Shown: positions 5,417-43,020 of the stretch, one piece after another | How positions within the stretch are numbered: the stretch's first letter is position 1 | Layout of the letters: each line of letters opens with the position of its first letter | From: Desulforamulus ruminis DSM 2154 | Lineage (GTDB): Bacteria; Bacillota; Desulfotomaculia; Desulfotomaculales; Desulfotomaculaceae | DNA: 64,000 nt | Assembly: GCF_000215085.1 (NCBI RefSeq) | Contig: NC_015589.1 | Span: 124,001 to 188,000, forward strand | Direction of reading: 5' to 3' | Translations under genes and position numbers: made by a program | The notes under the pieces: generated by a model | Seen by the model: only the letters and a program-made list of their open reading frames with translations | Databases searched by the model: none | What the model was told of the DNA's origin: nothing

Positions 5417-5435
5417 CAGCTAAAATAAATAGCTT

Positions 5436-5524
5436 TTACCAGGGGAGCCAATGGGGCTGAGAAAGGGCTTTACGCACCTGACCCTTAACCAGATCGGGAT
5501 AATGCCCGCGTGGGGAGTGTAGTG
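5436..5524 (+). promoter_or_regulatory. TPP riboswitch (THI element), thiN/thiXYZ operon
   Basis: Shows the conserved THI-box segments in order: GGGGAGCC, GGGGCTGAGA, CACCTGACCC, AGATCGGGATAATGCCCGCG and TGGGGAGTG. Binding of thiamine pyrophosphate normally favours the terminator that follows. The terminator hairpin at 5533-5559 begins only a few bases downstream, so control by premature termination is the likely mechanism. Confidence 0.95.
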
Positions 5525-5532
5525 CTTCTTAG

Positions 5533-5560
5533 ACACACCGTCTTCACGGTGTGTTTTTTG
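5533..5560 (+). terminator. Riboswitch-controlled terminator upstream of thiN
   Basis: A perfect 9-bp stem ACACACCGT / ACGGTGTGT around a CTTC loop, followed by TTTTT. It is the expression platform of the TPP riboswitch. Confidence 0.85.
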
Positions 5561-9108: not shown

Positions 9109-9143
9109 GCCCTTTACCATGCCGATACAAATGAATAATAAGA

Positions 9144-9225
9144 ACAGGGGAGCACCTTGCTGAGAGTGGTTAAGACCAGACCCTTTGACCTGACCCGGAT
9201 AATGCCGGCGTAGGGAGCAACTTTT
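9144..9225 (+). promoter_or_regulatory. TPP riboswitch (THI element), thiD-thiC-...-thiE operon
   Basis: Second THI element in the window: AGGGGAGCAC, TTGCTGAGAG, ACCCTTTGACCTGACCCGGATAATGCCGGCGTAGGGAGCAA. It lies 35 nt after thiZ, so it can regulate a new transcript or attenuate read-through from the first operon. A terminator hairpin follows at 9241. Confidence 0.95.
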
Positions 9226-9240
9226 CATCGTTGTAGGATG

Positions 9241-22643: not shown

Positions 22644-23012
22644 GGTGAAAATTCCGAACGGCGAAGATAGCGATAACCGTAGCCTAAGGTAAGGGTGTCC
22701 GTCGCGAGATGAATCTAAAGGAAGTCAGCGGCTTTCCTGCGCCCAGGGACCGAAGAAATGCCGAGTTTTTCACCAATGCAAGCCAGCGAAACGACCCGCG
22801 AAGAAAGTTGTACAAAACTAATGGAACGGGTGATAGCAAAGGACAATATGTACTATGCATTACACCGAGTCCAGTCTAATAAAGGTGCGACTGATATAGA
22901 TGGAATGACCATAGAATCCCTTTGGCCATTGCTGAAAGATCACTGGCCTGAAATTTAGAGAACAACTCCTGAACGGAACCTATCAACCTAAACCTGTACG
23001 TCTAGTGGAAAA
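22615..23012 (+). pseudogene. Group II intron fragment with truncated reverse transcriptase/maturase
   Basis: The DNA from about 22,630 to 22,750 (GATAACCGTAGCCTAAGGTAAGGGTGTCC, GAATCTAAAGGAAG) matches the 5' RNA part of bacterial group II introns. From the ATG at 22,758 the frame encodes the start of an LtrA-type protein: LMERVIAKDNMYYALHRVQ, NKGATDIDGMT, LLKDHWPEI. After an apparent one-base insertion near 22,955 it continues as REQLLNGTYQPKPVRLVE, then breaks off at about 23,005. The catalytic YADD part, maturase domain and RNA domains V-VI are missing. It sits directly behind the manganese operon. Confidence 0.85.
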
Positions 23013-23163
23013 CATTTTATAAATTAATAAAGCCCTGGACCCCGCCTACTCTTATTGCCAATTTACCGACGGCATTCTAAAAAATTCCAGGTCCTTAAAG
23101 GATTACTCACAACCCTGTAGCCCCCGACATAAGATGAAGCAAACCTAAAAAGGGGGGGGTACG

Positions 23164-24081
23164 GTGTCAAAGATACAGGAGGGTGATATTGTTGCCCGAA
23201 AATCCTATGAAAATGATTTGTTTTTTAAAGTTACCGATATATACCGTGGCGATGACGGGCGGGATTATGCTGTTATAAAAGGTTTGGATATAAGATTATT
23301 CGCCAGTTCTCCTGTGGATGACTTACAAAAGATTGACGCCAAGGATGTCGCTACTTATTGGACCCAAACACTTCGCAAAAACGCCGAAATTATGGACCGG
23401 GTCATGAAGCGCCGGGTAGAGGAAAGGGGCCACCGGATTAAACGGTGTACCGATGGCCACTGTTTTTTGTCGCGCACCGGCAGAGTCGAGGGGCAGCAGG
23501 AGACAGATGAGATTGAGGGTTTTGATGTGCCCGGTAGTGTACTGCATTTAGACGGAGATAAAGATTACCTGGATTTGTGTATGACCACATACCGAAATCT
23601 TTCTATTCCTGCCTATGGTTACGCAGTAAAAGAAGAAGAACAGCCCAAAAGGGTCAAAGAGCTGCTGCAAAAACACTACCCGGATATCCTGGTACTTACC
23701 GGGCATGACGGTTTAAAAAAAGGGGCCAAAGATTTAACGGATATTAACAATTATCATAATACCAAGTATTTTATTGAGGCGGTAAAAATTGCCCGCACCT
23801 TTGAAAAAAGCAAAGACGATCTGGTGATCTTTGCCGGGGCCTGCCAATCTTGCTATGAGGCCATTCTCAGCTCCGGATCAAACTTTGCCAGCTCCCCCAA
23901 AAGAGTATTGATTCATGCCTTTGATCCGGTCTTTGTGGTGGAGAAAATTGCTTATACCTCCATCCATGATCCTATTGCCATTCGGGAGATTATCTCCAGT
24001 ACCATTACCGGATTTGATGGAATTGGGGGGCTGGAAACCCGGGGTAAACACCGCCTGGGTGTTCCTAAAACAAACTATTAA
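23164..24081 (+). CDS. yabG: Sporulation peptidase YabG
   Basis: A 305-residue cysteine protease of the YabG family that processes spore-coat proteins during sporulation. It starts with GTG at 23,164 behind a purine-rich AAAAAGGGGGGG tract. Family features: an N-terminal SH3-like part (GDIVARKSYENDLFFKV), the VLHLDGDKDYL stretch, LVLTGHDGLKKGAKD with the putative catalytic His, and FAGACQSCYEAIL with the putative catalytic Cys. In B. subtilis it follows ksgA directly; here the ykuK-like gene and the manganese island separate the two. Confidence 0.95.
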   Translation: MSKIQEGDIVARKSYENDLFFKVTDIYRGDDGRDYAVIKGLDIRLFASSPVDDLQKIDAKDVATYWTQTLRKNAEIMDRVMKRRVEERGHRIKRCTDGHCFLSRTGRVEGQQETDEIEGFDVPGSVLHLDGDKDYLDLCMTTYRNLSIPAYGYAVKEEEQPKRVKELLQKHYPDILVLTGHDGLKKGAKDLTDINNYHNTKYFIEAVKIARTFEKSKDDLVIFAGACQSCYEAILSSGSNFASSPKRVLIHAFDPVFVVEKIAYTSIHDPIAIREIISSTITGFDGIGGLETRGKHRLGVPKTNY

Positions 24082-24146
24082 ATGAGTAGCCCTTTGAATT
24101 CCTCCGCATATGATGATTTAGGAGTTTATAGGGAGGGATTTCCTTT

Positions 24147-25151
24147 ATGGATAAGCATTTAAAGACCGTTGAACGTGCCCGGTGGAGGCTGCTGGGCATG
24201 AATAATGTTGTAGGCGTGGGTGTTGGTTACAAGCATGTGGGCTTGGAACGGACGGAAAGGCCCGCCATTATTGTATTTGTTAAAAAGAAAGAGACTTCTG
24301 AGAATCTCAGCAGGGAAAATCTTGTACCTTATAAAATTAACGGCCTGGAAACAGACGTCATCGAAATTGGCGAAGTCCGCTTGTTGAGTGAACGCACCCA
24401 GGTCATTCGACCGGCCCAACCCGGGGTCAGTATCGGCCATTACCGCATTACCGCCGGTACCTTTGGGGCCGTGGTGCGGGACCGGGATACCGGGGAAAAA
24501 TTAATTCTTTCCAATAATCATATTTTAGCCAATGCCTCCAATGGCAATGACGGCCGGGCCGCTGTGGGAGATCCCATTTTACAGCCCGGGGAATATGATG
24601 GCGGCACCAAAGATAACCGGATTGCCACTTTGCTCCGGTACATTCCCCTGCAAAAGGGAGAATCTCTAGCCACCTGTCCGGTAGCCAACGTTGCGGCCCG
24701 GTTGGCCAATATTTTGGTGCATACCCTTCGACCCAATTATGATTTAAGATTTTTTAAGCGCGGCAGGGCGGAAAATTTGGTTGACTGTGCCGTGGCCCGG
24801 CCGGTTCGCGAGAATGTTATCTTTGAAGAAGTTCTGGGGATTGGGCGAATTGAAGGGTTGGCTGAAGCCAGACCCGGCATGCCGGTTGTAAAAAGCGGCA
24901 GAACCACCGGTATCACCAAGGGGACCGTTACTGCCGTAGGTGCTACGCTGGAGGTAAAACTGGACGATGAAAGCACCGCTCATTTTAGCGGCCAGGTGGT
25001 GACCAATATGAAGTCCCAGGGCGGAGACAGCGGGTCCCTGGTGCTGACGGAAGGCAACCGGGCCGTTGGTCTGCTGTTTGCAGGTTCTGATAAAGTGACG
25101 GTATTTAACCCTATTCAACGGGTACTGGAAAAATTAAATGTGGAGTTATAA
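24147..25151 (+). CDS. Trypsin-like serine protease without signal peptide
   Basis: A 334-residue protein with a chymotrypsin-fold catalytic triad: His in LILSNNHILAN (about residue 117), Asp in NLVDCAVARPV (about 214) and Ser in SQGGDSGSLVLT (about 293). A conserved N-terminal extension (GMNNVVGVGVGYK, PAIIVFVKKKE) is found in this class of bacterial nuclease/protease-like proteins. No signal peptide or membrane segment is visible. It follows yabG by 66 bp and ends at a good terminator, so the two may be co-expressed in sporulation; that is inference. Substrate unknown. Confidence 0.82.
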   Translation: MDKHLKTVERARWRLLGMNNVVGVGVGYKHVGLERTERPAIIVFVKKKETSENLSRENLVPYKINGLETDVIEIGEVRLLSERTQVIRPAQPGVSIGHYRITAGTFGAVVRDRDTGEKLILSNNHILANASNGNDGRAAVGDPILQPGEYDGGTKDNRIATLLRYIPLQKGESLATCPVANVAARLANILVHTLRPNYDLRFFKRGRAENLVDCAVARPVRENVIFEEVLGIGRIEGLAEARPGMPVVKSGRTTGITKGTVTAVGATLEVKLDDESTAHFSGQVVTNMKSQGGDSGSLVLTEGNRAVGLLFAGSDKVTVFNPIQRVLEKLNVEL

Positions 25152-25159
25152 GCTAGACC

Positions 25160-25190
25160 AACCCCGGGGACGAAAATCCCGGGGTTTTGT
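25160..25190 (+). terminator. Rho-independent terminator after the trypsin-like protease gene
   Basis: Perfect stem AACCCCGGG / CCCGGGGTT with a 9-nt loop, followed by TTGTT. Confidence 0.85.
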
Positions 25191-25332
25191 TCCATAGTAA
25201 ATAATGGTATAGATGATCAATCATGAGAATTTATCCAGAAACTTTGATCATTGCCTATAGAATCTAATTGATTCAATGATTGGCATGTCATACGGTTTTT
25301 GTAAGAAAATCCATTTTTTTGTATATTTAGGA

Positions 25333-25478
25333 CAGGCCTTCCGGTTCTGCCGGAAGGGTAAAATTCATGCCGAATCCCGGGAGGTCCCGGGTACGGAGGA
25401 ACCAGCCATTTGGGGGTGAATCCTTTTATTTTTTAGGTAGGGTTATCCTTGCCCGAACCCGTCAGCTAACTCCGGAGG
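25333..25478 (+). promoter_or_regulatory. c-di-AMP riboswitch (ydaO-yuaA type)
   Basis: The conserved core is visible in order: GCCGAATCCCGGGAGGTCCCGGGTACGG, GGAACCAGCC, GGGGTGAATCC, TAGGTAGGGTTATCCTTGCCCGAACCCGTCAGCTAACTCCGGAGGC. A hairpin (CCTTCCGG / CCGGAAGG) lies at its 5' side. This RNA class senses cyclic di-AMP and usually controls cell-wall hydrolases and osmolyte genes. Here it sits directly before a secreted CAP-domain protein. The riboswitch itself is open in the gene's frame, which creates a spurious 44-codon extension. Confidence 0.92.
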
Positions 25479-25498
25479 CAAAAAGGAGGAGAAAGAAA

Positions 25499-26446
25499 GT
25501 GCAGTTTCGTTTAAAAAGAGTTTCCATGTTTCTTGCGACCTTGTTCACGCTCGCCTTTCTGGTATCCATGGCTAGCCCCCAAGCGGCTTTGGCTGTAGAC
25601 AAGGATGGCCAGCAAATGGTTGCCCTGGTGAATGCGAATCGGTCTAAAGCGGGACTTCCGGCCCTGCAGTACGATTCCCAGCTATGTGCTCAGGCAGCCC
25701 AACTCTTAAGCGCCTACCAGAAGACCGGCCAGATTCCCAGCACCGCAAACCTGTATCAGGTAGCTAAAAACGGAGGTTACAAATCCCTTGGACAAACCGT
25801 TGTCCGCGGTAGCGATGTAAAGGCCATGGTTGATAAGCAACTAACTTGCTATGGCAACAGCTCGGTTTTAAACGCCAAGTACGACTGCGTGGGTGTGGCC
25901 ATGGTCAACACCACCAGTGGCAAGCTTTGTGTTCAACTACTGGCCACCAAGGGAAGCAGTAAGCCCGCAACGCCGAAGCCTACGCCCACGCCGACCCCCA
26001 CTCCTACACCTGGGGATGGGGAACCAAATGAAGGCTCCGGTTCCTCGGATGCCAGCATGAACCAGTTGCAGCAGCAGGTAGTGGATCTGGTCAACGCGGA
26101 ACGGGCCAAACAGGGACTTAAACCGGTGGTGGCCAAGCAGGACTTAACCGCTGTAGCTCAGTTAAAGGCTCAGGATATGTACAATAAAAAATATTTTTCT
26201 CACACTTCTCCCACTTACGGTTCCCCCTTTGACATGATGCGCCAGCAGGGAATTAGTTACACGGCCGCCGGCGAAAATATTGCCATGGGACAGAAGACCG
26301 CCCAGCAGGTCATGACCGACTGGATGAACAGCTCCGGTCACCGGGCGAACATTTTAAATGCCAATTATAATGAAATTGGTGTGGGAGTTTACCAGAGTTA
26401 TAATGGTTATGGTTATATCTGGGTGCAGGAATTTGCCCGCAGATAA
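25499..26446 (+). CDS. Secreted CAP (SCP/YkwD) domain protein, two CAP units
   Basis: A 315-residue exported protein. The GTG at 25,499 is the start (AAAAGGAGGA 8 nt upstream). The signal peptide (residues 1-31) ends in AALA. A degenerate CAP-like unit (MVALVNANRSKAGLPAL, about 35-150) is followed by a Pro/Thr linker (TPKPTPTPTPTPTPG) and a canonical C-terminal CAP domain (VVDLVNAERAKQGLKPV, MYNKKYFSHTSP, GENIAMG, WMNSSGHRANIL, about 195-313). Bacterial CAP proteins are extracellular and some are spore or wall associated; their activity is mostly unknown. Expression should be shut off or on by c-di-AMP. Confidence 0.9.
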   Translation: MQFRLKRVSMFLATLFTLAFLVSMASPQAALAVDKDGQQMVALVNANRSKAGLPALQYDSQLCAQAAQLLSAYQKTGQIPSTANLYQVAKNGGYKSLGQTVVRGSDVKAMVDKQLTCYGNSSVLNAKYDCVGVAMVNTTSGKLCVQLLATKGSSKPATPKPTPTPTPTPTPGDGEPNEGSGSSDASMNQLQQQVVDLVNAERAKQGLKPVVAKQDLTAVAQLKAQDMYNKKYFSHTSPTYGSPFDMMRQQGISYTAAGENIAMGQKTAQQVMTDWMNSSGHRANILNANYNEIGVGVYQSYNGYGYIWVQEFARR

Positions 26447-26513
26447 CGTTTCGGGACAAACCGTGTCCTTGGAATAAAGCCTGGATAATGAACAAAATAC
26501 CAGAATAAGGCAG

Positions 26514-26543
26514 CAGGAGGATATATTTCCTCCTGTTTTTTTT
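26514..26543 (+). terminator. Rho-independent terminator after the CAP gene
   Basis: Perfect stem CAGGAGGA / TCCTCCTG with a 6-nt loop followed by eight T. Confidence 0.88.
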
Positions 26544-26636
26544 CATTTTCTTGAGGATTGACCACATTTTCAGCACATTTCTCCAGCCAAACCAATATAT
26601 ATATTAAGGAGATATTCTGAAAGGAGGCTATGATAA

Positions 26637-28274
26637 ATGGCCATGAAGAGGCAGCCTAAGACGCGGTACCGTAAAACACGCGCCTACGAGAGAGCCGGAA
26701 CCACGACCGAACCGTTAAGAACAGAAAGGCTGACCGTGGAAGAGGTAATCGCTGAAAATACCGAGCAAACCATAGTTCGTGGAACCCTCTCCGTACCAGA
26801 GGAAAAACCCGAAATTGAAGAGATCCTTGCCATTGACACCAAGGTTAAGCTGAGGAAGGTTGAGGTTATTCCCGATAAGGTTATTGTTGAAGGAACCCTT
26901 AAACTGAGAGTGATGTATTCTGCCTTTAAAGATGACCAGTCTGTACACACCTTTCATGACGAAATCGATTTTGTGGATTTTGTGGATGTTGAAGGCGCCC
27001 GTCCCGGCATGAACAAGGAAGTTGACATTGTGGTAGAGGATGTGAGCCTGACCAGAAATCCCAAGTGCGCCGCGGATTGGGATGTAGCGGCAGTAATTAT
27101 GGTTACGGCCAGGATCACCGAAACCCGTGAAGTGGATGCCCTGGTTGAATGCCCGGAGGGGTTTGAATGCGAGTCCGAACAAATGAATCTGGAGCAATTG
27201 GTAGGCAGTGGCTCCAAACAAGTATTGATTGATGACGAATTTGAAATTCCGGAACGCAAGCCCGATGTTGAAAAGGTCCTGCGCTGCATGTGCGATGTTG
27301 AAATCACCAATGTTAAAATTATCCGCAATAAAGTAATCATTGACGGTGAAGTGGAACTGGAGTGCCTTTACACCGCCATGAAAGACGACCAGAAAGTCCA
27401 TACCTTTGAGAATACCTTTAATTTTACTGATTTTATTGAAATTGAAGGCGCCGAGCAGGGCATGATCGCCAAAGTAGACGTCATGGTGGAGAGTTGCTTT
27501 GTTGAAGAGGATGAAGACAATGCATGCCTGCTGTCTCCCACCATTGTCTTAAATGTCACCGCCCGGGTGGTTGAAAACCGGGAAGTGAGTGTAATTACCG
27601 AAGTGAAAGGCGCTGAATCCCTAAAAACCGCTACCCTGGCCATGGAGAGCCTGGTGGGCGAAGAATGCAAACAGGTGGTTATCCGGGATTTCAAAGAACC
27701 GCCGCATCATAAGCCGGATGTTGACAAAGTCCGGGATATTAAGATTGGCGACATCGTTATCAAGGACAGTGACGTTATCCAGGATAAAGTGCTGGTCCGG
27801 GGCACCATCGAGTTCCAGGTGATTTATACCTCGGTGAAGAAGGATCAGGCCGTCCACATGATTCACCGGAAGGTTACTTTCAAGACCTTCATTGACGTTC
27901 CCGGCGCCCGCCCTGATGACAATGTAGACTTTGATATAAACGTGGAATGGACCAATGCTAAGATGGACGGTTGCGACCTGCTGATCGAAGCGGTTCTGGA
28001 AATTTGCGCCAGGGTTACCGAAACGGTGCGGCGGGAAATTGTGACCGGTGTAAGCCTGCCGGAACCTACTCCTGCTCCTACGGAGGAGCCTGAAGCGTGC
28101 GTGCCCGGAACGGTCTTTAATTACACCATCCAGCAGGGAGATACCCTGAGCAAACTGGCCCAGCGTTATGGCACCACCGTCAGTGCCATTAGAAGAGCCA
28201 ATCCCGAGATTACCAATGTTAACCAATTAACCGTGGGGCAGGTAATCAAAATTCCTTGCGCTGCCAAGGGTTAA
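26637..28274 (+). CDS. SPOCS (DUF3794) x3 and LysM protein, SpoVID/SipL-like
   Basis: A 545-residue protein with three repeats of the SPOCS module (about residues 50-150, 200-320 and 345-460). Each repeat carries VIVEGTLKLRVMYSA/FKDDQSVHTFH-type strands and an (I/V)D(F/V)xxxxEGAxPGM segment. A Pro-rich linker and a C-terminal LysM peptidoglycan-binding module (FNYTIQQGDTLSKLAQRYGT, about 494-543) complete it. The same parts occur in the spore morphogens SpoVID and SipL, which anchor the coat to the cortex or outer forespore membrane. No signal peptide, as expected for mother-cell coat proteins. AAAGGAGG lies 8 nt before the ATG. The next gene is 28 bp downstream. Confidence 0.88.
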   Translation: MAMKRQPKTRYRKTRAYERAGTTTEPLRTERLTVEEVIAENTEQTIVRGTLSVPEEKPEIEEILAIDTKVKLRKVEVIPDKVIVEGTLKLRVMYSAFKDDQSVHTFHDEIDFVDFVDVEGARPGMNKEVDIVVEDVSLTRNPKCAADWDVAAVIMVTARITETREVDALVECPEGFECESEQMNLEQLVGSGSKQVLIDDEFEIPERKPDVEKVLRCMCDVEITNVKIIRNKVIIDGEVELECLYTAMKDDQKVHTFENTFNFTDFIEIEGAEQGMIAKVDVMVESCFVEEDEDNACLLSPTIVLNVTARVVENREVSVITEVKGAESLKTATLAMESLVGEECKQVVIRDFKEPPHHKPDVDKVRDIKIGDIVIKDSDVIQDKVLVRGTIEFQVIYTSVKKDQAVHMIHRKVTFKTFIDVPGARPDDNVDFDINVEWTNAKMDGCDLLIEAVLEICARVTETVRREIVTGVSLPEPTPAPTEEPEACVPGTVFNYTIQQGDTLSKLAQRYGTTVSAIRRANPEITNVNQLTVGQVIKIPCAAKG

Positions 28275-28302
28275 TTATATAAACCTATAAGGAGGTATAA
28301 AA

Positions 28303-29355
28303 ATGCCTAACGGTACTCTTCCACTCGATTGCGTTCTTGTGAAGCTGCCCATTGTTTTAGCCGACGTCCCAGGATCCATTTCTGTGGATAACGTAACATG
28401 CCTGGAAGAAGTGGCTAGAAAAGTGGATCATATTGATGTGGTGGTGCGGGATTTGGAAGCAGATCCCCACTTCACCACCGAGGTGGGTTGCAACAGCCCT
28501 AAGGCCACCATCCATTTTGGAGAGCCCCAGTGCGGACCCAGCTTCATTCGCAGTATCACCATTCATGGTGAAATCCATAAACAGATTTATTATGTCAACA
28601 AAGATGATGATGTCCGTCATATGGCCGAAGATATTCCCTTTACCAAAAATATTGTTTTAAATCCGCCACTGCCGGTTAGCAATCCCGGCAACGTGGACAT
28701 TGACTTCCGCAATGTGGATGTAAACGTTGATTTTGAGCTGCCGAGGGCTTCCCGTATTCAGCAGGTGGCCACCATTTCCTTTGTTTTAAAGATTACCGAA
28801 GACCAACAGGTATTTATCCGCGTTTGCCCGTCTCCGGATCAGATTTGCGGCACCGAGCTGGTAGCGGATCCCAGTCTGGAAAACTGGTTGGGAGATAACA
28901 CGCCGGTGGCCTGGAGCGCCAGCAATGTAGTCCGGTCCGACACAGCCCACACCGGTACTTACTCGGCCCAACTGGGCGATAACCGCCAGGAAAGTGCAAA
29001 CTTGAGCCAGACCATTAATGCTACTTTTGCCCGGGCCGGTTTGAATTACCGGATGTGCTTCTGGGCCAGATCGGTTGCTCCCGAGGCTCAAATTGGAACC
29101 CAAGCCAATCAGTTTACACTGACGGCTGAACTGGTCTTTTTTGATGCCAATGGAAACCGCCTGGCCGGGTCTACGGTGACCCGTACCGGCACCGAATTAA
29201 GCAATGGCTGGCAGCAGATTTGCGCGCAGAATGTTACTGCGCCGGAGGGCACTGCTCTTGCCCTGGTATCCTTCCTGTTCGAGCCCAATAATGTGCAGCC
29301 CCCCAACGGGTCCGCCGTACTCATTGATGATGTTTCCGTCATGTGCATGAGCTAA
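28303..29355 (+). CDS. SPOCS-like protein with C-terminal carbohydrate-binding-like domain (paralogue)
   Basis: A 350-residue paralogue of the minus-strand gene at 2235-3239. The first ~180 residues are nearly identical (DHIDVVVRDLEADPHFTTE, SPKATIHFGEPQCGP, HGEIHKQIYYVNKDDDVRH). The C-terminal part (DPSLENWLGDNTPVAWSASNV, then SAQLGDNRQESANLSQTI and RMCFWARS) looks like a CBM4/9 jelly roll that could bind polysaccharide. ATAAGGAGG precedes the ATG. It is only 28 bp after the SPOCS-LysM gene, so the two probably form a coat-assembly operon. Function is inferred from domains and context. Confidence 0.82.
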   Translation: MPNGTLPLDCVLVKLPIVLADVPGSISVDNVTCLEEVARKVDHIDVVVRDLEADPHFTTEVGCNSPKATIHFGEPQCGPSFIRSITIHGEIHKQIYYVNKDDDVRHMAEDIPFTKNIVLNPPLPVSNPGNVDIDFRNVDVNVDFELPRASRIQQVATISFVLKITEDQQVFIRVCPSPDQICGTELVADPSLENWLGDNTPVAWSASNVVRSDTAHTGTYSAQLGDNRQESANLSQTINATFARAGLNYRMCFWARSVAPEAQIGTQANQFTLTAELVFFDANGNRLAGSTVTRTGTELSNGWQQICAQNVTAPEGTALALVSFLFEPNNVQPPNGSAVLIDDVSVMCMS

Positions 29356-29378
29356 GAGAAGCATTCGCTAGACCTATT

Positions 29379-29411
29379 AGCTGTCCGAAGCCCGGGCAGC
29401 TTGCTTTTTTT
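29379..29411 (+). terminator. Rho-independent terminator after the SPOCS pair
   Basis: 8-bp stem AGCTGTCC / GGGCAGCT (one G-U pair), then TGCTTTTTTTATT. Confidence 0.75.
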
Positions 29412-29506
29412 ATTCTCTGGGAAGGATCAAAAATCCTAAGTAACTAATTTGATCGGTCCTTCATACTATGATATTGTTAGTTTTTTGACTTTAAGGGGGG
29501 AACCAG

Positions 29507-30214
29507 GTGGAAAAGGCGAAGAAGGAAGAAGCCATGATTCCGGCCGTACCTACGGGTCAGGGGATGTCCGGGGGACTGGAGGATGCTTTGTTTAAGCTGC
29601 TGGATCACCAAACCCGATATGGGACAGATCAGAACCACACCATGATTACGCTGGCCTTGATGAATTTGCTGGGTATTGTGAACTGCATGAACCGCCTGCT
29701 GCCGGAAGGAGAGGTAACGCAGGGAACCGGCGATTTGGCTGCTCAAATCGGCAAGATGCTGGGCGTACCGGATGCCCCGGGAGCAGGAGTGGCCTCCGGA
29801 CAGCGGGGGGGCATGGGTGGCCTTGATCCGGCCCTGCTGGCAGCCCTGGCCGGCATGATGGGCGGCCTTCCCAGAGGAGCAGGTACAGGGGAAGCGGGAG
29901 GAAAGCCCGGTTTAGACCCGGCCTTGCTGGGGGCACTGGCCGGGATGATGGGAGGCGGCGGGCCGGGAGGCGGCAATCCGGCGGCTCTGATGGGCATGCT
30001 GGCGAATTTAATGGGCAGTTTCCCTGGACCAGGACGTCCGTCGGAGGTTCCGCGGCACCGAGAAGAAGCTGCCGGCCACAGGGGAGAAGAGAGACCAGGA
30101 CGGACCGAAGAAAAGTCGGGTCCGGTAAAAGAAACCGGTAGAAAAGAACCTCAGACCGGGCCCCGGGGTACCATCAAATGGGACCCCAGATTAGGCGTGC
30201 CGACATCAAATTAA
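29507..30214 (+). CDS. Gly/Met/Pro-rich hypothetical protein with internal repeats
   Basis: A 235-residue protein of unknown function. The N-terminal third (LEDALFKLLDHQTRYGTDQ, TMITLALMNLLGIVNCMNRLL) is helical. The middle is Gly/Met rich and carries a repeated GLDPALLAALAGMMGG / GLDPALLGALAGMMGG unit plus NPAALMGMLANLMG. The C-terminal 60 residues are charged and probably disordered. No signal peptide. GGGGGGAACC precedes the GTG start. It heads a run of genes with two YbaB-like proteins. CATACTATG at 29,462 resembles a sporulation-sigma -10 element, but no clear -35 is seen. Confidence 0.75.
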   Translation: MEKAKKEEAMIPAVPTGQGMSGGLEDALFKLLDHQTRYGTDQNHTMITLALMNLLGIVNCMNRLLPEGEVTQGTGDLAAQIGKMLGVPDAPGAGVASGQRGGMGGLDPALLAALAGMMGGLPRGAGTGEAGGKPGLDPALLGALAGMMGGGGPGGGNPAALMGMLANLMGSFPGPGRPSEVPRHREEAAGHRGEERPGRTEEKSGPVKETGRKEPQTGPRGTIKWDPRLGVPTSN

Positions 30215-30229
30215 GGGGGAGTGTTTCCG

Positions 30230-30535
30230 TTGTTAGGTAATTTTGGCGGGATAATTTCTCAGGTGCAGAATTTGCAAGCGTCCCTAAAGGGGATTACCGT
30301 GGAGATCAGTGTGGGTGAAGGGGCTGTTTCCGTAGCCATGGATGGCTCTCAGCATTTGCTGGGAGTTAAGATTGCTCCTGAGGTAATCAATACTGAAGAC
30401 ATCGCCAGGCTGGAAGATTTGGTCACCGAAGGCTTAAGCAAGGTTCAGACTGAGACCAGAAACCGCATTCAACAGGAGATTTCCAAATTAACCGGAATTA
30501 ATGTGGCCAATCTCCCCAACTTATTTCAAGGATAA
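30230..30535 (+). CDS. YbaB/EbfC-like protein, divergent copy 1
   Basis: A 101-residue protein. The TTG at 30,230 is chosen because AAGGGGGA lies 9 nt upstream and the resulting MLGNFGGIISQVQNLQASLK aligns with the next gene (MLGSMSKVLGQVQNLQEQLK). The family layout of YbaB nucleoid-associated proteins is kept: an N-terminal helix, a GEGAVSVAMDGSQHLLGVKI beta part, a helix with EDLVTEGLSKVQ and the ending TGINVANLPNLF. The normal ybaB lies beside recR and dnaX in Firmicutes, so this is an additional copy. DNA binding is not proven. Confidence 0.78.
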   Translation: MLGNFGGIISQVQNLQASLKGITVEISVGEGAVSVAMDGSQHLLGVKIAPEVINTEDIARLEDLVTEGLSKVQTETRNRIQQEISKLTGINVANLPNLFQG

Positions 30536-30549
30536 ACGGGGGTGTTAAG

Positions 30550-30849
30550 ATGTTAGGGAGTATGTCAAAAGTTTTGGGGCAGGTGCAAAATCTTCAGGAG
30601 CAGTTAAAAAAAATGACCGTTGAAGGAAGCGCCGGAAATGGCATGGTAAGGATTATAATGAATTGTCAGCAGCATGTGCTGGGGGTTCGTTTTAATGCCG
30701 ATCAATTGGATCAATATAACCCGGAATCCCTGGAGCAATTAATTATTGAGGCTTTTAAACAAGCCCAGGAAAAAAGTAAGGCACAAGCCAAGGAAGAGGT
30801 TCAAAAAATAACCGGATTTGACTTATCAAGCCTGCCCGGTATGTTTTAA
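30550..30849 (+). CDS. YbaB/EbfC-like protein, divergent copy 2
   Basis: A 99-residue paralogue of the preceding gene, closer to canonical YbaB: EGSAGNGMVRIIMNCQQHVLGVRF, LEQLIIEAFKQAQEKSKAQAKEEV and the typical C-terminus FDLSSLPGMF. It starts at the ATG at 30,550, 14 nt after copy 1. Two different YbaB proteins side by side suggests a heterodimer or a specialised role, possibly forespore DNA or a surface structure. This is inference. Confidence 0.82.
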   Translation: MLGSMSKVLGQVQNLQEQLKKMTVEGSAGNGMVRIIMNCQQHVLGVRFNADQLDQYNPESLEQLIIEAFKQAQEKSKAQAKEEVQKITGFDLSSLPGMF

Positions 30850-30890
30850 ATTTTAAATTTTTTATAATTTTGAAGTTGAAAAGCCTGGAT

Positions 30891-30926
30891 AGAAAAAGGA
30901 TAGCTGGAAATGCCGTCCTTTTTCTG
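30891..30926. terminator. Hairpin downstream of the YbaB pair
   Basis: Perfect 10-bp stem AGAAAAAGGA / TCCTTTTTCT with a 15-nt loop. The A- and T-rich arms could terminate transcription on either strand. Confidence 0.5.
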
Positions 30927-31041
30927 CTTCCGGGAGCAAAATTTGTCTCATACGCTGTAACACAAAGAATCCTTTTCTCATAATTTAATGTAAGAACGGT
31001 CCCGGGACATCGTTCATGGATTTCAATAAGGAGGAATTTGG

Positions 31042-31269
31042 ATGTCTAACGTACTTGAAAGCGTTAAAGAGAATTGCGGAGGTTTTAGGCAAACCGTTAC
31101 TACCACTAGCTGCATTATCGTGTTTTTGGCATTGGTAGCCCTTGGAGTAGCCCTGTTTTTACTGGGCATTATCAATGCCGCACTTCTGGCAGCCATCATC
31201 ATACTGGCCTTAATCGTCCTCTTGCTCTGCGCTGTACTGTTCGACGGCGGCATTGGGGATTGCTTCTAG
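31042..31269 (+). CDS. Small two-helix membrane protein
   Basis: 75 residues. A short polar N-terminus is followed by two hydrophobic stretches (about residues 22-45 and 47-66) separated by NAA, and a Gly/Asp-rich tail ending GGIGDCF. AATAAGGAGG precedes the ATG. I recognise no family. Its place among putative spore-envelope genes suggests a membrane component, but there is no direct evidence. Confidence 0.7.
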   Translation: MSNVLESVKENCGGFRQTVTTTSCIIVFLALVALGVALFLLGIINAALLAAIIILALIVLLLCAVLFDGGIGDCF

Positions 31270-31374
31270 TCACAAATTTTGGTTACTTTGCAAGGGAAGG
31301 GCTGCACCCTTGTGTAGCCCTTTCCGGACTAGAACACTAGAGTAAGAGCCAGCTAAACAAAGGAGTTGATGACA

Positions 31375-31905
31375 GTGGCTGAAGGATCCAGCAACCGGCT
31401 CGTCAGCAACATGGAAGAACTGGTATCCAAGGTGGAGGGGATTTACTCAAAGAAAAGCGGTGAACTGGACCAGGTTTCCGGTGCGCTGAGCAATATAGAC
31501 CGGCTGGTGGAGGTGCTTGCCAGGGTAGAACTGCAACAGAGTGCAGAGCAGCAACTGGGCGATAAAATAACAAAATTAAATACTGCCTTGGAAAGATTGA
31601 ATCAACCCCCGGATGCCGCCAGCCAAGAGGAAGATACCAATGTTCAAGAGACCCTCCGCAAGATTATTAAAGGAGCAAAAGTAACGGGAAAAGTATTGGA
31701 TATTGTTGCCGGCGGTTTGTCGGTTATGTTTGATTCCATTACGGAAACGGTTAAATCCGGCAATCGGCAGGGAGCCAAAACGGCACCAGAATCGGTTGAC
31801 CTCAGTAGCGTATTAAATCCACTGGGATCAATCCTGCGGGGTTTGGTCCACAGCGATAACAACGAGCCGGCACCCAGCAAGCAGGAGGAAAAATTAGAAA
31901 ATTAA
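31375..31905 (+). CDS. Coiled-coil hypothetical protein
   Basis: About 176 residues, unknown function. The first ~80 residues are strongly heptad-like (MEELVSKVEGIYSKKSGELD, ALSNIDRLVEVLARVELQQS) and likely form a coiled coil. A VTGKVLDIVAGGLSVMFDSI amphipathic helix and a disordered C-terminus (SNNEPAPSKQEEK-type) follow. The GTG at 31,375 lies 9 nt after AAAGGAG; an ATG at 31,369 is closer but has too short a spacing. It precedes the subtilase gene by 36 bp. Confidence 0.65.
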   Translation: MAEGSSNRLVSNMEELVSKVEGIYSKKSGELDQVSGALSNIDRLVEVLARVELQQSAEQQLGDKITKLNTALERLNQPPDAASQEEDTNVQETLRKIIKGAKVTGKVLDIVAGGLSVMFDSITETVKSGNRQGAKTAPESVDLSSVLNPLGSILRGLVHSDNNEPAPSKQEEKLEN

Positions 31906-31941
31906 AGAAGGTGGCAGGCAAGGACCCAAGGGGATGAAGCG

Positions 31942-33024
31942 ATGGTTAATCTACCCGCCAGAAAAAGAATAATCCTTTTTAAGCTGCGTTTCAACCGTGG
32001 TGAGCCGGCTCCACCGCACCGGTTTTTAATGGATTGGATGGGGGCAACGGAGATTCACCCCCTGCCTGCGGTTAACGGCATACTTTGCAGTTTACCGCCA
32101 AGTATATCCGATGAAGAGATCATGGCCACCGGCGGGGTCGCAGCGGTAGAAAAAAATTTTAAAATAAAATTAAATTCTTATGAAGTGGTTCCCTTTTACC
32201 ATTCCTGGCCTGAAGGCAATCAATATATACCCCAGGGGATTCGGATCCTTGAGGCCCCGGAATTTTGGCCCAGGACCAAGGGTCAGGGAGTCCGTGTGGC
32301 GGTGATGGATACCGGAATTGACGGACAGCACCCGGATTTATTACCGAACCTCAAGGGCGGTATGAATTTTATTTATCCCGGCAAAGCCTTCGCCGATGAT
32401 AACGGCCATGGAACCCATGTGGCAGGAATCATCGCGGCTGCCGATCGCGGCCAAGGCATTGTGGGGATGGCGCCTGAAGCCCAGCTTTATGCGGCCAAGG
32501 TGTTGGATCAAAGGGGCGAGGGAACCGTTTACCATGTAATTTCGGCAATACATTGGTGCGTTAAAAATAAGATCAATATAGTAAATATGAGCTTTGTATT
32601 GGATTCGTACAGTGGCGCACTAAAAGAAGCCCTGCGGTATGCCCGGGAACAAGGGCTTCTGGTGGTGGCTGCCGCCAATAATGAATTGGTTGGGGAAGCA
32701 AGTTACCCTGCCGTGTTTGAGGAGACGGTGGGTGTTAAATCCATCGGGGCGGACCCTCCGATGGCAGGCTTAAATCAGGATGAATCCGGAATTGATTTTG
32801 CAGGGCCCGGCAACAGCGTTGTTTCTACCTACCGGTGGGGTACTTATGCCTGCCTAACAGGCAATTCCATGGCCGGGGCCTATATTAGCGGCTTAGCCGC
32901 CTTATTAAAGGCAGATCATCCAGGGAAGGGAGTAGGAAAACTGTACCGGAGATTAAAGGAAAGGTTGGCGGTACCACATAGAGTGCCAACAAAAAAACTT
33001 CAGGTGCAGGGTCTTTCCGGTTGA
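31942..33024 (+). CDS. Subtilisin-like S8 protease without signal peptide
   Basis: A 360-residue subtilase with the complete triad: Asp in VAVMDTGIDGQHPD (about residue 122), His in DNGHGTHVAGII (about 155) and Ser in TGNSMAGAYISGL (about 312), plus the oxyanion-hole Asn in VVAAANN. The N-terminal ~90 residues (RIILFKLRFNRGEPAP...) may be an inhibitor-like propeptide. No secretion signal is present, so it resembles intracellular or spore-associated subtilases such as IspA and the CspB/CspC germination proteases. A germination or coat-processing role is inferred from the context. Confidence 0.85.
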   Translation: MVNLPARKRIILFKLRFNRGEPAPPHRFLMDWMGATEIHPLPAVNGILCSLPPSISDEEIMATGGVAAVEKNFKIKLNSYEVVPFYHSWPEGNQYIPQGIRILEAPEFWPRTKGQGVRVAVMDTGIDGQHPDLLPNLKGGMNFIYPGKAFADDNGHGTHVAGIIAAADRGQGIVGMAPEAQLYAAKVLDQRGEGTVYHVISAIHWCVKNKINIVNMSFVLDSYSGALKEALRYAREQGLLVVAAANNELVGEASYPAVFEETVGVKSIGADPPMAGLNQDESGIDFAGPGNSVVSTYRWGTYACLTGNSMAGAYISGLAALLKADHPGKGVGKLYRRLKERLAVPHRVPTKKLQVQGLSG

Positions 33025-33182
33025 TGAAGCATAAATATCTTCCCTGGGAGCAAAAGGAATTGAAAACAGAGGATTGATCACCCCGGTCGGGACAGCAAAT
33101 TAAATCCGGCGGGGGTTGATTATTCGTGTATAATGGCCCGGATTACCGTAAAAAATAGGAAAGAAATCAGGAGGTGACAGTT

Positions 33183-33425
33183 TTGACCGGGCCAAAGACG
33201 GAAAACAGCAAGAATCGCACGCAGACCTTTAAGATCGGCGGGTTGCAAGGCGGTCAGCATGATAAGCAAGAGATTGAAACCTATCTTTCCGAACTGGACG
33301 GAGTTGACAAGGTGATCGTTAACCTGGATGAAGGCATGGTGTCCATTGACTTCGATCCGCAAGCTATCCACACCGATTACCTACGGGGGATTCTGCGGTC
33401 CCTGGGGCATGAGGTACTGGCATAA
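33183..33425 (+). CDS. Heavy-metal-associated (HMA)-like domain protein lacking CxxC
   Basis: 80 residues. The C-terminal ~65 residues follow the HMA ferredoxin-like pattern (FKIGGLQGGQHDKQEIETYL, GVDKVIVNLDEGMVSIDFDP, LRGILRSLGHEV), but the metal-binding CxxC loop is replaced by GGQHD, so copper-type binding through cysteines is not possible. The TTG at 33,183 is chosen since CAGGAGGTG lies just upstream; a GTG at 33,174 is inside that site. TATAAT at 33,129 may be a -10 element. Confidence 0.72.
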   Translation: MTGPKTENSKNRTQTFKIGGLQGGQHDKQEIETYLSELDGVDKVIVNLDEGMVSIDFDPQAIHTDYLRGILRSLGHEVLA

Positions 33426-33533
33426 TTCCCAATGGGATGAATAAAGAAAACCGCTCTTCGTCAAATTGGGTTGAGGGTGAGGGACTTTATTGCACGATGC
33501 TTTCATCCTTACATTGATATATTGATAGTAGAT

Positions 33534-33560
33534 AAAAGCAGGCCGAGGCCTGCTTTTAAG
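33534..33560 (+). terminator. Rho-independent terminator / palindrome
   Basis: Perfect 11-bp stem AAAAGCAGGCC / GGCCTGCTTTT with a 2-nt GA centre. Confidence 0.7.
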
Positions 33561-33573
33561 CTGGAGGTTGCTT

Positions 33574-34020
33574 ATGCACGGTAAATTATTGGCTTTAGTT
33601 ATTGCGGCTGGATCGGGTTTAACCATGGCCCTGCAAGGAGCCCTTAATTCAGCCCTGGGCAAAATCGTGGGATTATGGGAAACCACCTTTATTGTTCACG
33701 CGGTAGGAACTGTTGTTGTGGGCATTTTGGTATTTGTCTGCCGCTTAGGGACCTGCGATTTGGCTAAATGGGCCAGCGCACCCTGGTATACCTATCTGGG
33801 AGGCGTGCTCAGTGTATTAATCATTTACATGGTGGCCCGCACCATGCCGGTGGTGGGAGTGGCGCCGGCCACCACCGCCATTATTGTCGGACAAGTATTG
33901 ACCGCTGCCGTGGTGGATCATTTGGGTCTTTTCGGCATGAACCGGATTCCCTTTAACTGGTATCACCTGGCAGGAACCTTCCTGATGGCCGGGGGAGCCT
34001 TTTTGTTGCTTAAAAAGTAG
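33574..34020 (+). CDS. DMT superfamily transporter, YdcZ (DUF606) family
   Basis: A 148-residue membrane protein with about five hydrophobic segments, the YdcZ/DUF606 branch of the drug/metabolite transporter superfamily. Family features are GLTMALQGALNSALGK, WETTFIVHAVGTV, PWYTYLGGVLSV and VGQVLTAAVVDHLGLFG. These half-size proteins work as dimers or with a partner; the substrate is unknown. CTGGAGG precedes the ATG at 33,574. An R1 repeat follows directly. Confidence 0.88.
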   Translation: MHGKLLALVIAAGSGLTMALQGALNSALGKIVGLWETTFIVHAVGTVVVGILVFVCRLGTCDLAKWASAPWYTYLGGVLSVLIIYMVARTMPVVGVAPATTAIIVGQVLTAAVVDHLGLFGMNRIPFNWYHLAGTFLMAGGAFLLLKK

Positions 34021-34174
34021 GTTAGCCTTATGGGCTTCTTAGGGTCCTGTTGCTAGTCTTAAGGGCAATGCTCGGAGGTCCTGTAAAAAACCACGGGTTT
34101 CTACCACTGGACCTCAAAGGAATACATATAAGTCTAACAACAGGACCCTAAAGAAATCCCCTTGAGGCTAGAAG
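34021..34174. repeat. R1 fold-back repeat, well-preserved copy
   Basis: Left half: TTAGCCTTATGGGCTTCTTAGGGTCCTGTTGCTAGTCTTAAGGGCAATGCTCGGAGGTCCTGT in forward units of ~35 nt. Right half: the reverse complement units (CTGGACCTCAAAGGAATAC, CTAACAACAGGACCCTAAAGAAATCCCCTTGAGGCTA). The outer arms pair over most of their length. It lies between two convergent genes, so it could also act as a terminator-like structure. Confidence 0.75.
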
Positions 34175-34177
34175 GCT

Positions 34178-34753
34178 CTAGGTTGGAATGGTAATGGCCT
34201 GCCCCACGGATAGATGATCCGGATCCAGCAGGTTATTGGCGGAGATAAGGGCGTCCACGGTGACGTTAAATTGCTGGGCCAGCTTCCAGAGGGTATCTCC
34301 GGGGCGCACGTAATAGACCGTGTGATCCAGGGGAGGACCTTCCCCGCCGCTGCCGGGGGAAACCACCGCCTTTTGATTATAGCCGGGCACGGCCAGGATG
34401 CGCACCGGTGTGCCGACGGAAATCTGGGTAAAGAGTTCCTCCACACTGGCGTTATGCATGCGAATGCAACCCAGGGAAACGAATTTGCCGATGGAGGATG
34501 GGTTGTTGTTGCCGTGAATGCCGTAATTGCCCCCGGGAATATTCAGTCCCATCCAACGGGTTCCCAGCACTCCTCCGGGATTGGTTACTTTGTTAATGAT
34601 CTTAAAATCTCCGGCCGGAGTGGGTGTGGCATATTTGCCTACGCCCACGGGGTAGTTTTTTTGCAGTTGATCATCTACATAGAAACTTAACTGACGTGTG
34701 GCGGGATCAATCGTAATTTCCGCACCTGCTCTGTAGACGGGGATTGGCTTCAA
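34178..34753 (-). CDS. L,D-transpeptidase (YkuD) with C-terminal LysM domain
   Basis: 191 residues. The YkuD catalytic domain covers about residues 10-125: FYVDDQLQKNYPVGVGK, then HGNNNPSSIG and SLGCIRMHN, with the catalytic Cys and His. A linker leads to a LysM module (YYVRPGDTLWKLAQQFNVT, about 147-190). Such enzymes make 3-3 peptidoglycan cross-links or anchor proteins. There is no clear signal peptide, similar to B. subtilis YkuD, which is made in the mother cell and found in spores. It starts with TTG at 34,753 behind AAGGAGGG. Confidence 0.9.
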   Translation of the reverse strand: MKPIPVYRAGAEITIDPATRQLSFYVDDQLQKNYPVGVGKYATPTPAGDFKIINKVTNPGGVLGTRWMGLNIPGGNYGIHGNNNPSSIGKFVSLGCIRMHNASVEELFTQISVGTPVRILAVPGYNQKAVVSPGSGGEGPPLDHTVYYVRPGDTLWKLAQQFNVTVDALISANNLLDPDHLSVGQAITIPT

Positions 34754-34852
34754 TGTTTCTCCCTCCTTGCTGGAGTATTACTTCATACTATGACAAAAGA
34801 AGGGGTTCGGGTATCTTCGGACCGTATTTTTTAAGCCGGAGGTGCCAATAAT

Positions 34853-34960
34853 ATGCTAATAGATTTTCCCCAAACAAATTATTTCCAGGAAAAAGGTTTT
34901 TTTCCGCCGGCAGGGAATTACCATTTATTACAGTTTAGGAGGAATTCAACGTGGGGTTGA
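34853..34960 (+). CDS. Possible 35-residue leader ORF overlapping ispE start
   Basis: ATG at 34,853 preceded by GGAGGTG with 8-nt spacing. The frame encodes [20 protein letters not shown] and ends with TGA at 34,958-34,960, eight bases inside ispE. The good ribosome binding site and the overlap suggest a coupled leader peptide, but I know no homologue. The alternative is a chance ORF. Confidence 0.3.
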
Positions 34961-35808
34961 GCCTTCTGGCCCATGCTAAAATAAACCTGACCCTGGATGT
35001 ATGCTCCCGTCGTCCGGATGGTTACCATGAAGTGGAAATGATTATGCAGCAAATCCAGCTTCATGATCGTCTGGATTTTTGGCCCGCAGAAAAGGACATT
35101 TCTCTTACTTCATCCGGATTGGCCATCGATGCCGGGGAAGATAACCTGATTCTGCGGGCGGCCCGCCTGTTACAGAAAGCAACCGGAGAGCGAAAAGGCG
35201 CGGTCATCCACCTACATAAAGAGATTCCGGTGGCAGCCGGACTGGCCGGTGGTTCCACCGATGCCGCTGCCACTTTGGTTGGTCTTAATCAACTATGGAG
35301 TTTACAACTCAGCCGGAAACAATTAATGGATCTGGCGGTTCAACTGGGAGCGGACGTACCCTTTTGCCTGGCCGGAGGAACCATGTTGGCCCGGGGGATT
35401 GGTGAAATTCTGGAGCCTTTGTCTCCGGCACCTTCCTTTGGAGTTATTTTGGTAAAGCCCCCCTTTGGGGTTCCTACGGCAAAGATCTATCAGGGACTGA
35501 ATTTAGACCGTCTTGGCCCCCGGCCCGATACTGCCGCCATGGTTCAGGCCCTGGCCAAAGGGCATTTGGATGAACTGGCCGGAGGGTTATGCAATGTATT
35601 GGAAAGTGTTACCCTGGAGCTTTTCCCCCAACTGCAAACAATTAAAGAGAAGCTTGTACAGACCGGTTGCCAAGGGGCTTTAATGTCCGGCAGCGGCCCG
35701 ACGGTCTTCGGGTTAACCCGGGACAAGCAACGGGCCGGAGAAATTGCTTCAAAATTGGGAGACCTGGAAGGTCAGGTTATAATTACCGAGATGAAAAGGC
35801 CGGAATAA
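34951..35808 (+). CDS. ispE: 4-diphosphocytidyl-2-C-methyl-D-erythritol kinase
   Basis: A 285-residue GHMP kinase of the MEP isoprenoid pathway. Visible motifs: [21 protein letters not shown] at the N-terminus, [21 protein letters not shown] (the ATP loop, about residue 92) and the C-terminal [12 protein letters not shown]. It starts with GTG at 34,951 behind TTAGGAGGA. In B. subtilis ispE follows veg and sspF, which are not present in front of it here. Confidence 0.96.
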
Positions 35809-42819: not shown

Positions 42820-42931
42820 CTCTTATCCTGAGAGGTGGAGGGACTGGCCCTATGAAACCCGGCAACCATCCGGAAATATCCCGGACAGGTGCTAATTCCT
42901 GCAGGAGATGATCATCTTCTGGCAGATAAGA
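42820..42931 (+). promoter_or_regulatory. SAM-I riboswitch (S-box)
   Basis: All S-box blocks are present: closing helix CTCTTATC / GATAAGAG, CTGAGAGGTGGAGGGACTGGCCCTATGAAACCCGGCAACC and GGTGCTAATTCCTGC. A following hairpin AAGCCTCT / AGAGGCTT (about 42,955-42,980) is the likely expression platform. It controls the homocysteine module downstream, giving repression when SAM is plentiful. Confidence 0.95.
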
Positions 42932-43020
42932 GGTGTGCAACGCGATGATTAGCGAAGCCTCTTCTGTTAAGGAGAGGCTTTCATGATTGGTGGGGCAAGG
43001 AGCACGAAAGGAGGACAAAA

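Follow-up and report, generated by a model that had tools for sequence, protein, structure and literature searches.

We examined the interval between yabG and ispE of Desulforamulus ruminis DSM 2154 in a 64,000-nucleotide stretch of contig NC_015589.1 (assembly GCF_000215085.1, positions 124,001 to 188,000 of the forward strand). The whole stretch is called the window here, and its first letter is position 1 for all coordinates below. With a probability of about 0.7, this interval is a clade-specific spore-envelope neighbourhood around two proteases with SigK-type promoters, YabG and a serine protease named S1 in this text, whose genes serve in relatives as landing sites of skin-like elements. 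The first-pass annotation had proposed a spore-envelope locus with two signal-less proteases among coat-type proteins. Beyond that proposal, S1 is a NAL1-type protease, and yabG or S1 is interrupted in some relatives.

The S1 gene (24147-25151, plus strand) adjoins yabG (23164-24081, plus strand), which matches the U57 family of coat proteases and is intact in the window. By eye, S1 carries no signal peptide. Its best sequence relatives of solved structure are streptogrisin-type proteases and rice NAL1. The AlphaFold model of S1 (predicted local distance difference test score 86) was compared with the PDB by Foldseek, and ranks 1-34 were all NAL1, with template modelling (TM) scores of 0.59-0.67 of the query. 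The Pfam model NAL1_N (PF25608) scored 27.8 against a cut-off of 27, while Nal1_C stayed just under its own (25.7 against 26.1). The catalytic triad H125, D213 and S295, assigned from motifs rather than from structure superposition, was invariant in 57 of 57 proteins (44 intact and 13 rejoined in silico as described below). Five genomes (G206, G316, G340, G361 and G386) have S1 homologues with the C-terminal part ahead of the N-terminal part in one open reading frame (ORF); judged from the match coordinates, these look as if circularly permuted.

S1 was found in 106 of 113 genomes of the class Desulfotomaculia. Among the 80 good-quality genomes of the class, 76 had S1 and 78 had SpoIVA; the two without SpoIVA (G054, G078) were both without S1, and two with SpoIVA (G055, G082) had no S1. 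Six class genomes showed S1 sequence and no SpoIVA match (G023, G061, G062, G075, G092 and G103), and these are 57-84% complete. In a sample of the phylum (n = 348), S1 was present in 137 genomes and SpoIVA in 293, and S1 occurred without SpoIVA in just two, G185 (72% complete) and G230 (80% complete). Restricted to good quality (n = 312), the counts were 123 and 269. The first-pass annotation had named orthologues in non-sporulating relatives as evidence that would speak against its proposal; S1, the block gene covered by SpoIVA profiling, was absent from all 43 good-quality genomes in the phylum sample that lack SpoIVA. We give no p-value for this association because related genomes are not independent.

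Promoters were searched with consensus motifs; the 130 bases upstream of each start were scored and compared with dinucleotide-shuffled sequence, and all z scores are inflated by the relatedness of the sequences. The text available from PMC10747680 describes yabG as SigK-regulated, and this gene was the positive control for the SigK scan. SigK z was 13.8 for S1 (n = 52), 13.2 for yabG (n = 56) and -0.1 for ispE (n = 26). A simple -10 pattern was present before yabG in 42/56 sequences and before S1 in 34/52, and was absent before ispE (0/26) and before the GntR gene that follows it (0/23). In the window, the motif scan placed the SigK-type -10 of yabG, CATAAGATG, at 23128-23136 (plus strand); that of S1, CATATGATG, lies at 24107-24115 (plus strand), with a -35 matching at 3/4 positions by eye. 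SigE was rejected as the main factor for S1, its signal being weaker, with z 3.4 within the genus and 1.4 over all sequences, and SigK fits better. S1 has a yabG-like SigK-type promoter and is predicted to be a SigK-dependent mother-cell gene.

The S1 gene is broken into an N-half and a C-half in 13 of the 113 class genomes, always at the same codon, which lies between those for H125 and D213. G096 and G103 were left out of this count, each having the C-half alone on a short contig. The elements range from 2 to 90 kb: the halves are 2.0-9.5 kb apart on one contig in nine genomes, about 90 kb apart in G032 (single contig, 4.5 Mb), and on separate contigs in three. All 13 elements encode a large serine recombinase (longest ORF 537-572 aa), and the three expected Pfam domains were found in both that were scanned. 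A model built from these 13 recombinases (A1) gave E≤1e-120 in those genomes, one copy each; with limited candidates scored per genome, this cut-off, which was set in this analysis for the recombinase models, was not reached in any of the remaining 100 class genomes. The remaining cargo varies, including alcohol dehydrogenase-like, ABC transporter-like and conjugation-type genes by eye, and the 2 kb element has no listed ORF other than the recombinase and the gene halves. The largest insert (G032:C1:122041-212477, about 90 kb) has chromosome-like genes near both ends (transporters and redox enzymes, by eye).

Both ends of the S1 elements carry the core CCCGG; 12 of the 13 pairs agree fully, and G099 has one mismatch. 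In the window the corresponding core position of the chromosomal attachment site (attB) is at 24585-24589 (plus strand) and is uninterrupted. The inferred attachment site of the element (attP) is an inverted repeat with the same GG centre in 13/13 (12-19 of 22 positions, p≤0.0052 each), and attB of S1 is not (6-10 of 22 positions). Rejoining in silico was in frame and restored the triad, giving an ORF of 333-336 aa in 12/13 and of 319 aa in G068, where the start is lost at a contig end. On a tree of 68 S1 proteins (55 intact and 13 rejoined, from part of the class), the split state needs 8 changes, 7 of them forced by well-supported branches, so insertion or loss is recurrent. The C-half is under purifying selection: the ratio of nonsynonymous to synonymous rates (dN/dS) was 0.076 at a dS of 0.59 between two split species of one genus (G030-G104). 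Four further pairs gave 0.086-0.165, though their dS exceeded 1, and in another pair dS was saturated; the pair G097-G098 (0.51) was excluded for a 14-aa stub from a wrong start. Before the split S1, the SigK-type motif is retained in 9 of the 12 genomes with a usable upstream region (G068 being excluded for its contig end). Several C-halves are readable from a start codon within or beside the element.

A second recombinase family splits yabG. In families f3 and f5, yabG ends early after its GIGG codons. The break lies between codons aligning with window positions 24030 and 24031 in 8/8 f3/f5 loci read, and in all eight the yabG tail (ETRGK.RLG.PK..Y, 16 codons) stands directly behind a large serine recombinase and just before an intact S1. 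These elements measure 2.4-7.0 kb, and their recombinases share 18-25% identity with those of the S1 elements; across both element types, the three expected Pfam domains were checked in 3 recombinases. A model built from the eight loci gave E≤1e-120 in 18/113 class genomes, ten of them below 1e-220, followed by a gap to 1e-150. The other two of these ten, G076 and G077, have the recombinase between yabG and S1 by coordinates, and in G076 the yabG match extends to the end of the model. G009 has a truncated yabG on a short contig and no match to the yabG-recombinase model. The inverted repeat of the attachment site had a common best centre in 7/8 (p 0.002-0.057), and rejoining in silico was precise and in frame. 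None of the 13 S1-split genomes had a shortened yabG match. At one locus (L079, in G013), a unit of about 3.5 kb, running from a gene that looks LysR-like by eye up to the recombinase, stands twice in tandem.

Outside the class, model A1 found four genomes of the phylum sample at 1e-90, the best at 3.6e-151. A related recombinase is found with murA: the murA insert in G207:C2 (L135, L136) is about 27 kb, with neighbours resembling murB and ftsQ/ftsZ by eye, and G317:C29 (L134) has a murA C-half with a recombinase, the other half not being seen there. G207 and G317 have two other full-length murA frames each. A phage origin of the S1 recombinase was considered and rejected, the best match per record being below 60% identity in 126 phage records. 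Identity was 27-32% in the ten records shown, and a pattern-limited scan of viral contigs gave one match of 29%.

All 13 ORFs that the first-pass annotation listed between yabG and ispE (34951-35808) are present, where B. subtilis has veg and sspF at the corresponding position, and their domain identities held in domain-model searches, apart from corrections to the start of one gene and the strand of another. After S1 comes a CAP/YkwD-family protein (25367-26446), above the cut-off of TIGR02909 (spore_YkwD) and with a signal peptide by eye. Its listed start lies within a cyclic di-AMP (c-di-AMP) riboswitch (RF00379, 25358-25495, plus strand, 97.9 bits in Rfam), so the true start is later, probably near 25523. 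Of 7 other loci tested for this riboswitch, 4 had it as well. Other riboswitches of the window are two for thiamine pyrophosphate and one for S-adenosylmethionine, at 5431-5534, 9136-9233 and 42820-42932 (Rfam). Next come a protein of three SipL/SPOCS stretches plus LysM (26637-28274) and a second SPOCS protein (28303-29355), in which both domain matches are weak: its single SPOCS stretch scores 20.8 bits against a cut-off of 23.6, and its region resembling NTTRR-F1 or a carbohydrate-binding module (CBM) is also under cut-off. The Gly/Met-rich repeat protein (29507-30214) has a SigK-type -10 at 29462. Two YbaB-like proteins (30221-30535 and 30550-30849) are above the Pfam cut-off, and this genome holds a third YbaB copy with a better score elsewhere, a copy of that kind being present in 8 of 9 genus genomes. 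The ORF list then gives a small membrane protein of 75 aa (31042-31269) and a coiled-coil protein of 179 aa (31366-31905). The S8 subtilase (31942-33024) has a domain match and no visible signal peptide; its D123 and H159 are conserved in 12/12 sequences and S309 in 11/12. The HMA-like protein (33174-33425) scores just under cut-off (24.3 against 24.8) and has a SigF-like site (-35 at 33128, -10 at 33148), and a YdcZ family membrane protein (33568-34020) follows by domain match. These genes are all on the plus strand; the last, a YkuD L,D-transpeptidase with LysM (LDT, 34178-34753), is on the minus strand, with a SigK-type -10 at 34792 on that strand. Upstream of yabG, short ORFs at 22709-22958 resemble a group II intron reverse transcriptase remnant by eye.

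The yabG neighbourhoods of 56 other genomes were mapped with the window proteins, and 26 had yabG and ispE on the same stretch, 6 from the own genus and 20 from other families. This comparison of synteny, which the first-pass annotation had suggested, showed an arrangement beyond chance: the 6/6 genus stretches retain every one of the 16 genes that run from yabG to the GntR gene behind ispE, and yabG, S1, SPOCSx3-LysM, CAP and YdcZ form a class-wide core. In the 20 stretches outside the genus we counted SPOCS-LysM in 20, S1 in 18, YdcZ in 18, CAP in 16, any YbaB in 11, the Gly/Met-rich gene in 10, HMA in 9, SPOCS-CBM in 8, the coiled-coil gene in 4, S8 in 4 and the small membrane protein in 0. 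LDT, counted on the strand opposite to yabG, was in 13/20; the raw count of 19/20 included LysM cross-matches. Among the 56 loci, the coiled-coil and S8 genes are confined to 7 own-genus and 4 f3 loci. These counts speak for an old core and for a coiled-coil/S8 part peculiar to family f3 and the genus of the window. A contig scan for named orthologues of the locus gave one locus, in D. aquiferis. In several families, ORFs of about 100-150 aa stand between S1 and CAP (e.g. L035:4946-5344); none was seen in the genus of the window, and one that was scanned had no Pfam match. Several families also have small helical proteins beside the Gly/Met-rich genes, on the opposite strand (L035:9527-9880, L047:4814-5104), and one that was scanned had no convincing Pfam match.

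The control signals within the block are mixed. LDT, Gly/Met-rich and SPOCS-LysM genes have mother-cell promoter signals weaker than those of S1 and yabG: SigK z was 7.4 for SPOCS-LysM (n = 41), 5.7 for the Gly/Met-rich gene (n = 8) and 5.3 for LDT (n = 20), and SigE z was 7.8 for SPOCS-LysM and 5.3 for LDT. The -10 pattern was present before LDT in 11/20 (genus sequences 7/7), the Gly/Met-rich gene in 5/18 (genus 4/8) and CAP in 6/43. SigK z was low for GntR (1.7, n = 23), YdcZ (1.6, n = 30), CAP (1.4, n = 43), S8 (0.2, n = 12) and SPOCS-CBM (-2.5, n = 25), and the -10 pattern was absent before S8 (0/12) and SPOCS-CBM (0/25). HMA has a SigF-like rather than a SigE/SigK site (SigF z 6.2, n = 9). 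The block is not one regulon, given the SigF-like site of HMA and the c-di-AMP riboswitch before CAP, a signal that suits wall control better than a role in sporulation alone. S8, SPOCS-CBM and YdcZ show no mother-cell promoter of their own either, and the coiled-coil gene shows only a weak one (SigK z 3.0, n = 11; -10 pattern 0/11). One SigE/SigK regulon for the whole block was thus ruled out by the signals of CAP, HMA, S8, YdcZ and SPOCS-CBM. The idea of a single mother-cell module in the first-pass annotation is not supported by these data and the narrow distribution of the coiled-coil and S8 genes. Its proposal of mother-cell control is supported for S1, which has a SigK-type promoter as yabG does. 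The link to sporulation is upheld by this shared promoter, the joint distribution of S1 and SpoIVA, and the TIGR02909 and SPOCS families.

Most likely, the mother cell makes YabG and S1 late in sporulation, and LDT, the Gly/Met-rich protein and the SPOCS-LysM scaffold together with them. S1, having no visible signal peptide, would then act like YabG and trim proteins of the envelope from the side of the mother cell. SafA carries a LysM domain, and its model gives a weak match to the LysM part of SPOCS-LysM (1.4e-08, under cut-off). In the available text of PMC10681294, YabG is a mother-cell protease required for coat and exosporium assembly, and SafA cleavage in B. subtilis is YabG-dependent. 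From this cleavage and the weak SafA-like match, we infer that YabG and S1 would trim SPOCS/LysM scaffold proteins late in coat assembly, acting from the mother cell. CAP and HMA are wired differently from the protease pair. In relatives, elements with two unrelated families of large serine recombinases insert at one codon each, and precise excision would restore the gene, as in skin; the insertion position, the structure of the attachment sites and the preserved halves make skin-like excision likely in both the S1 and the yabG elements. The sporulation timing of expression and excision, like the protease substrates, is what we infer from these features. We also lean, a little less firmly, to the view that developmental rearrangement of the genome recurs at the yabG-S1 pair: two unrelated recombinase families would have specialised independently, each on one codon in one of these two late mother-cell protease genes, and would excise in the terminal mother cell, so that a split gene would cost nothing. 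If true, the smallest S1 element, approximately a recombinase alone, would be a minimal self-removing interrupter kept by its host.

Several observations weigh against this picture. The window genome has neither element; both proteases are intact, and no recombinase-family match was found at the cut-offs used. The simple -10 pattern was selected after the profiles of yabG and S1 were known, and some controls are not near zero (ispE SigE z 3.0, GntR SigA z 4.1, yabG SigA z 3.4). The S1 site in the window itself scores 8/10 only, and a plain consensus scan of the window chose an equal-scoring alternative (8/10, -10 at 24069). SPOCS-LysM has the -10 pattern in 10/42 sequences and in 0/8 from the genus. 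Outside the class, S1 and yabG are both listed in 82 genomes, and 31 of these have the two on one contig; a distance of no more than 15 kb separates them in 24 of the 82. Neither expression nor proteome data turned up for the locus genes. In the available part of the D. reducens surfaceome study (PMC4137172) there is no expression evidence for the locus genes and no Dred_00 term in the main text. For the elements, no sporulation promoter was found before the S1-element recombinases (SigE z 0.3, SigK z -0.7), the signal before the yabG-element recombinases reaches SigE z 2.2 only, and no recombination directionality factor was identified, without a systematic search for one. The next relative of the S1 recombinases splits murA in G207 (family f29), so recombinases of this type also occur outside sporulation genes.

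The last points would suit ordinary integrative elements at a conserved safe site, with the split gene inactive and not restored in sporulation: their cargo differs widely (by eye), their recombinases show no sporulation promoter, and the murA relative sits in a genome with two other full-length murA frames. We consider this unlikely, though it is the likeliest of the alternatives, since both S1 halves remain open with the triad kept in 13/13, the C-half is under the constraint given above (dN/dS 0.076 at dS 0.59), and 9/12 split genes still have the SigK-type motif in front of them. The smallest insert, listing the recombinase as its sole ORF, is unlikely to be kept for cargo. Purifying selection and the C-halves readable from a start codon in or beside the element would also be expected if the halves were translated separately and assembled into one protease. 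This seems very improbable to us, because in all 13 the gene is broken at an attachment site that comes with a recombinase and an inverted-repeat attP, precise in-frame rejoining would be coincidental, and the 16-codon yabG tail, in the same arrangement, could hardly function as a separate protein. The mixed control and the absence of several genes outside the genus could instead mean a loose set of cell-envelope genes gathered near ispE by chance or genome architecture, and no spore module. Such a set is improbable in our view: the core order is kept across many families, SigK-type motifs stand before at least yabG, S1, LDT and the Gly/Met-rich gene, and S1 is restricted to SpoIVA-bearing genomes, incomplete genomes aside. 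We prefer the reading of a spore-envelope neighbourhood around two SigK-type proteases that are targets of skin-like elements.

The data point to S1 as a widespread sporulation-linked protease, found in 137/348 genomes of the phylum sample and beside yabG in much of one class. The list of gene-intervening elements in sporulation is short, and the elements described here extend it by a new target gene, by a host class not represented before and by further yabG cases; their attachment sites are precise enough for testing by polymerase chain reaction or in public reads. When insertions recur at one codon in mother-cell genes, the sequence alone offers an independent hint that the function is restricted to the mother cell.

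In comparison with known systems, S1 is like rice NAL1 in fold, with its best 34 Foldseek matches, and in exceeding the cut-off of PF25608. It differs in sequence (about 20% identity, root-mean-square deviation of 5-10 Å over long alignments), and the listed NAL1 structures are from plants, whereas S1 is bacterial, adjoins yabG and has a SigK-type promoter. YabG of C. difficile and B. subtilis is the product of the neighbouring gene with the same kind of promoter, but it is a cysteine protease of another fold. The available text of PMC10681294 gives yabG alone, besides four co-opted vegetative genes, as the contribution of the SigK regulon to the sporulation signature. In the Moorella spore proteome, YabG (moth_0056) is in the orthology table and its neighbours are not mappable in the part available (PMC8745062). 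YkuD, YkwD, SafA and SipL-type proteins of B. subtilis have the same domain types as the LDT, CAP, LysM and SPOCS proteins, by domain model only. In the titles, abstract openings and matches listed from the open-licence literature, we found no S1/NAL1-type protease beside yabG, no element in one, and no yabG element besides yin. The available text of PMC10747680 describes yin of C. botulinum V73 as a large serine recombinase element in yabG, excised on sporulation; it is a prophage of one strain, and its authors report no other yabG element in public genomes. The yabG elements here occur in two families, are small (2.4-7.0 kb) and use one codon near the 3' end. In the sections available of PMC4191935 and PMC5595907, the serine-recombinase elements skin (sigK), SPbeta (spsM), vfbin (spoVFB), vrin (spoVR) and gin (gerE) each interrupt a sporulation gene of the mother cell and leave it by precise excision, and an S1/NAL1-type protease is not named among their targets. 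The S1 and yabG elements share the skin-type features, namely a large serine recombinase, a short core, inverted-repeat attachment sites and, in silico, in-frame rejoining of the gene.

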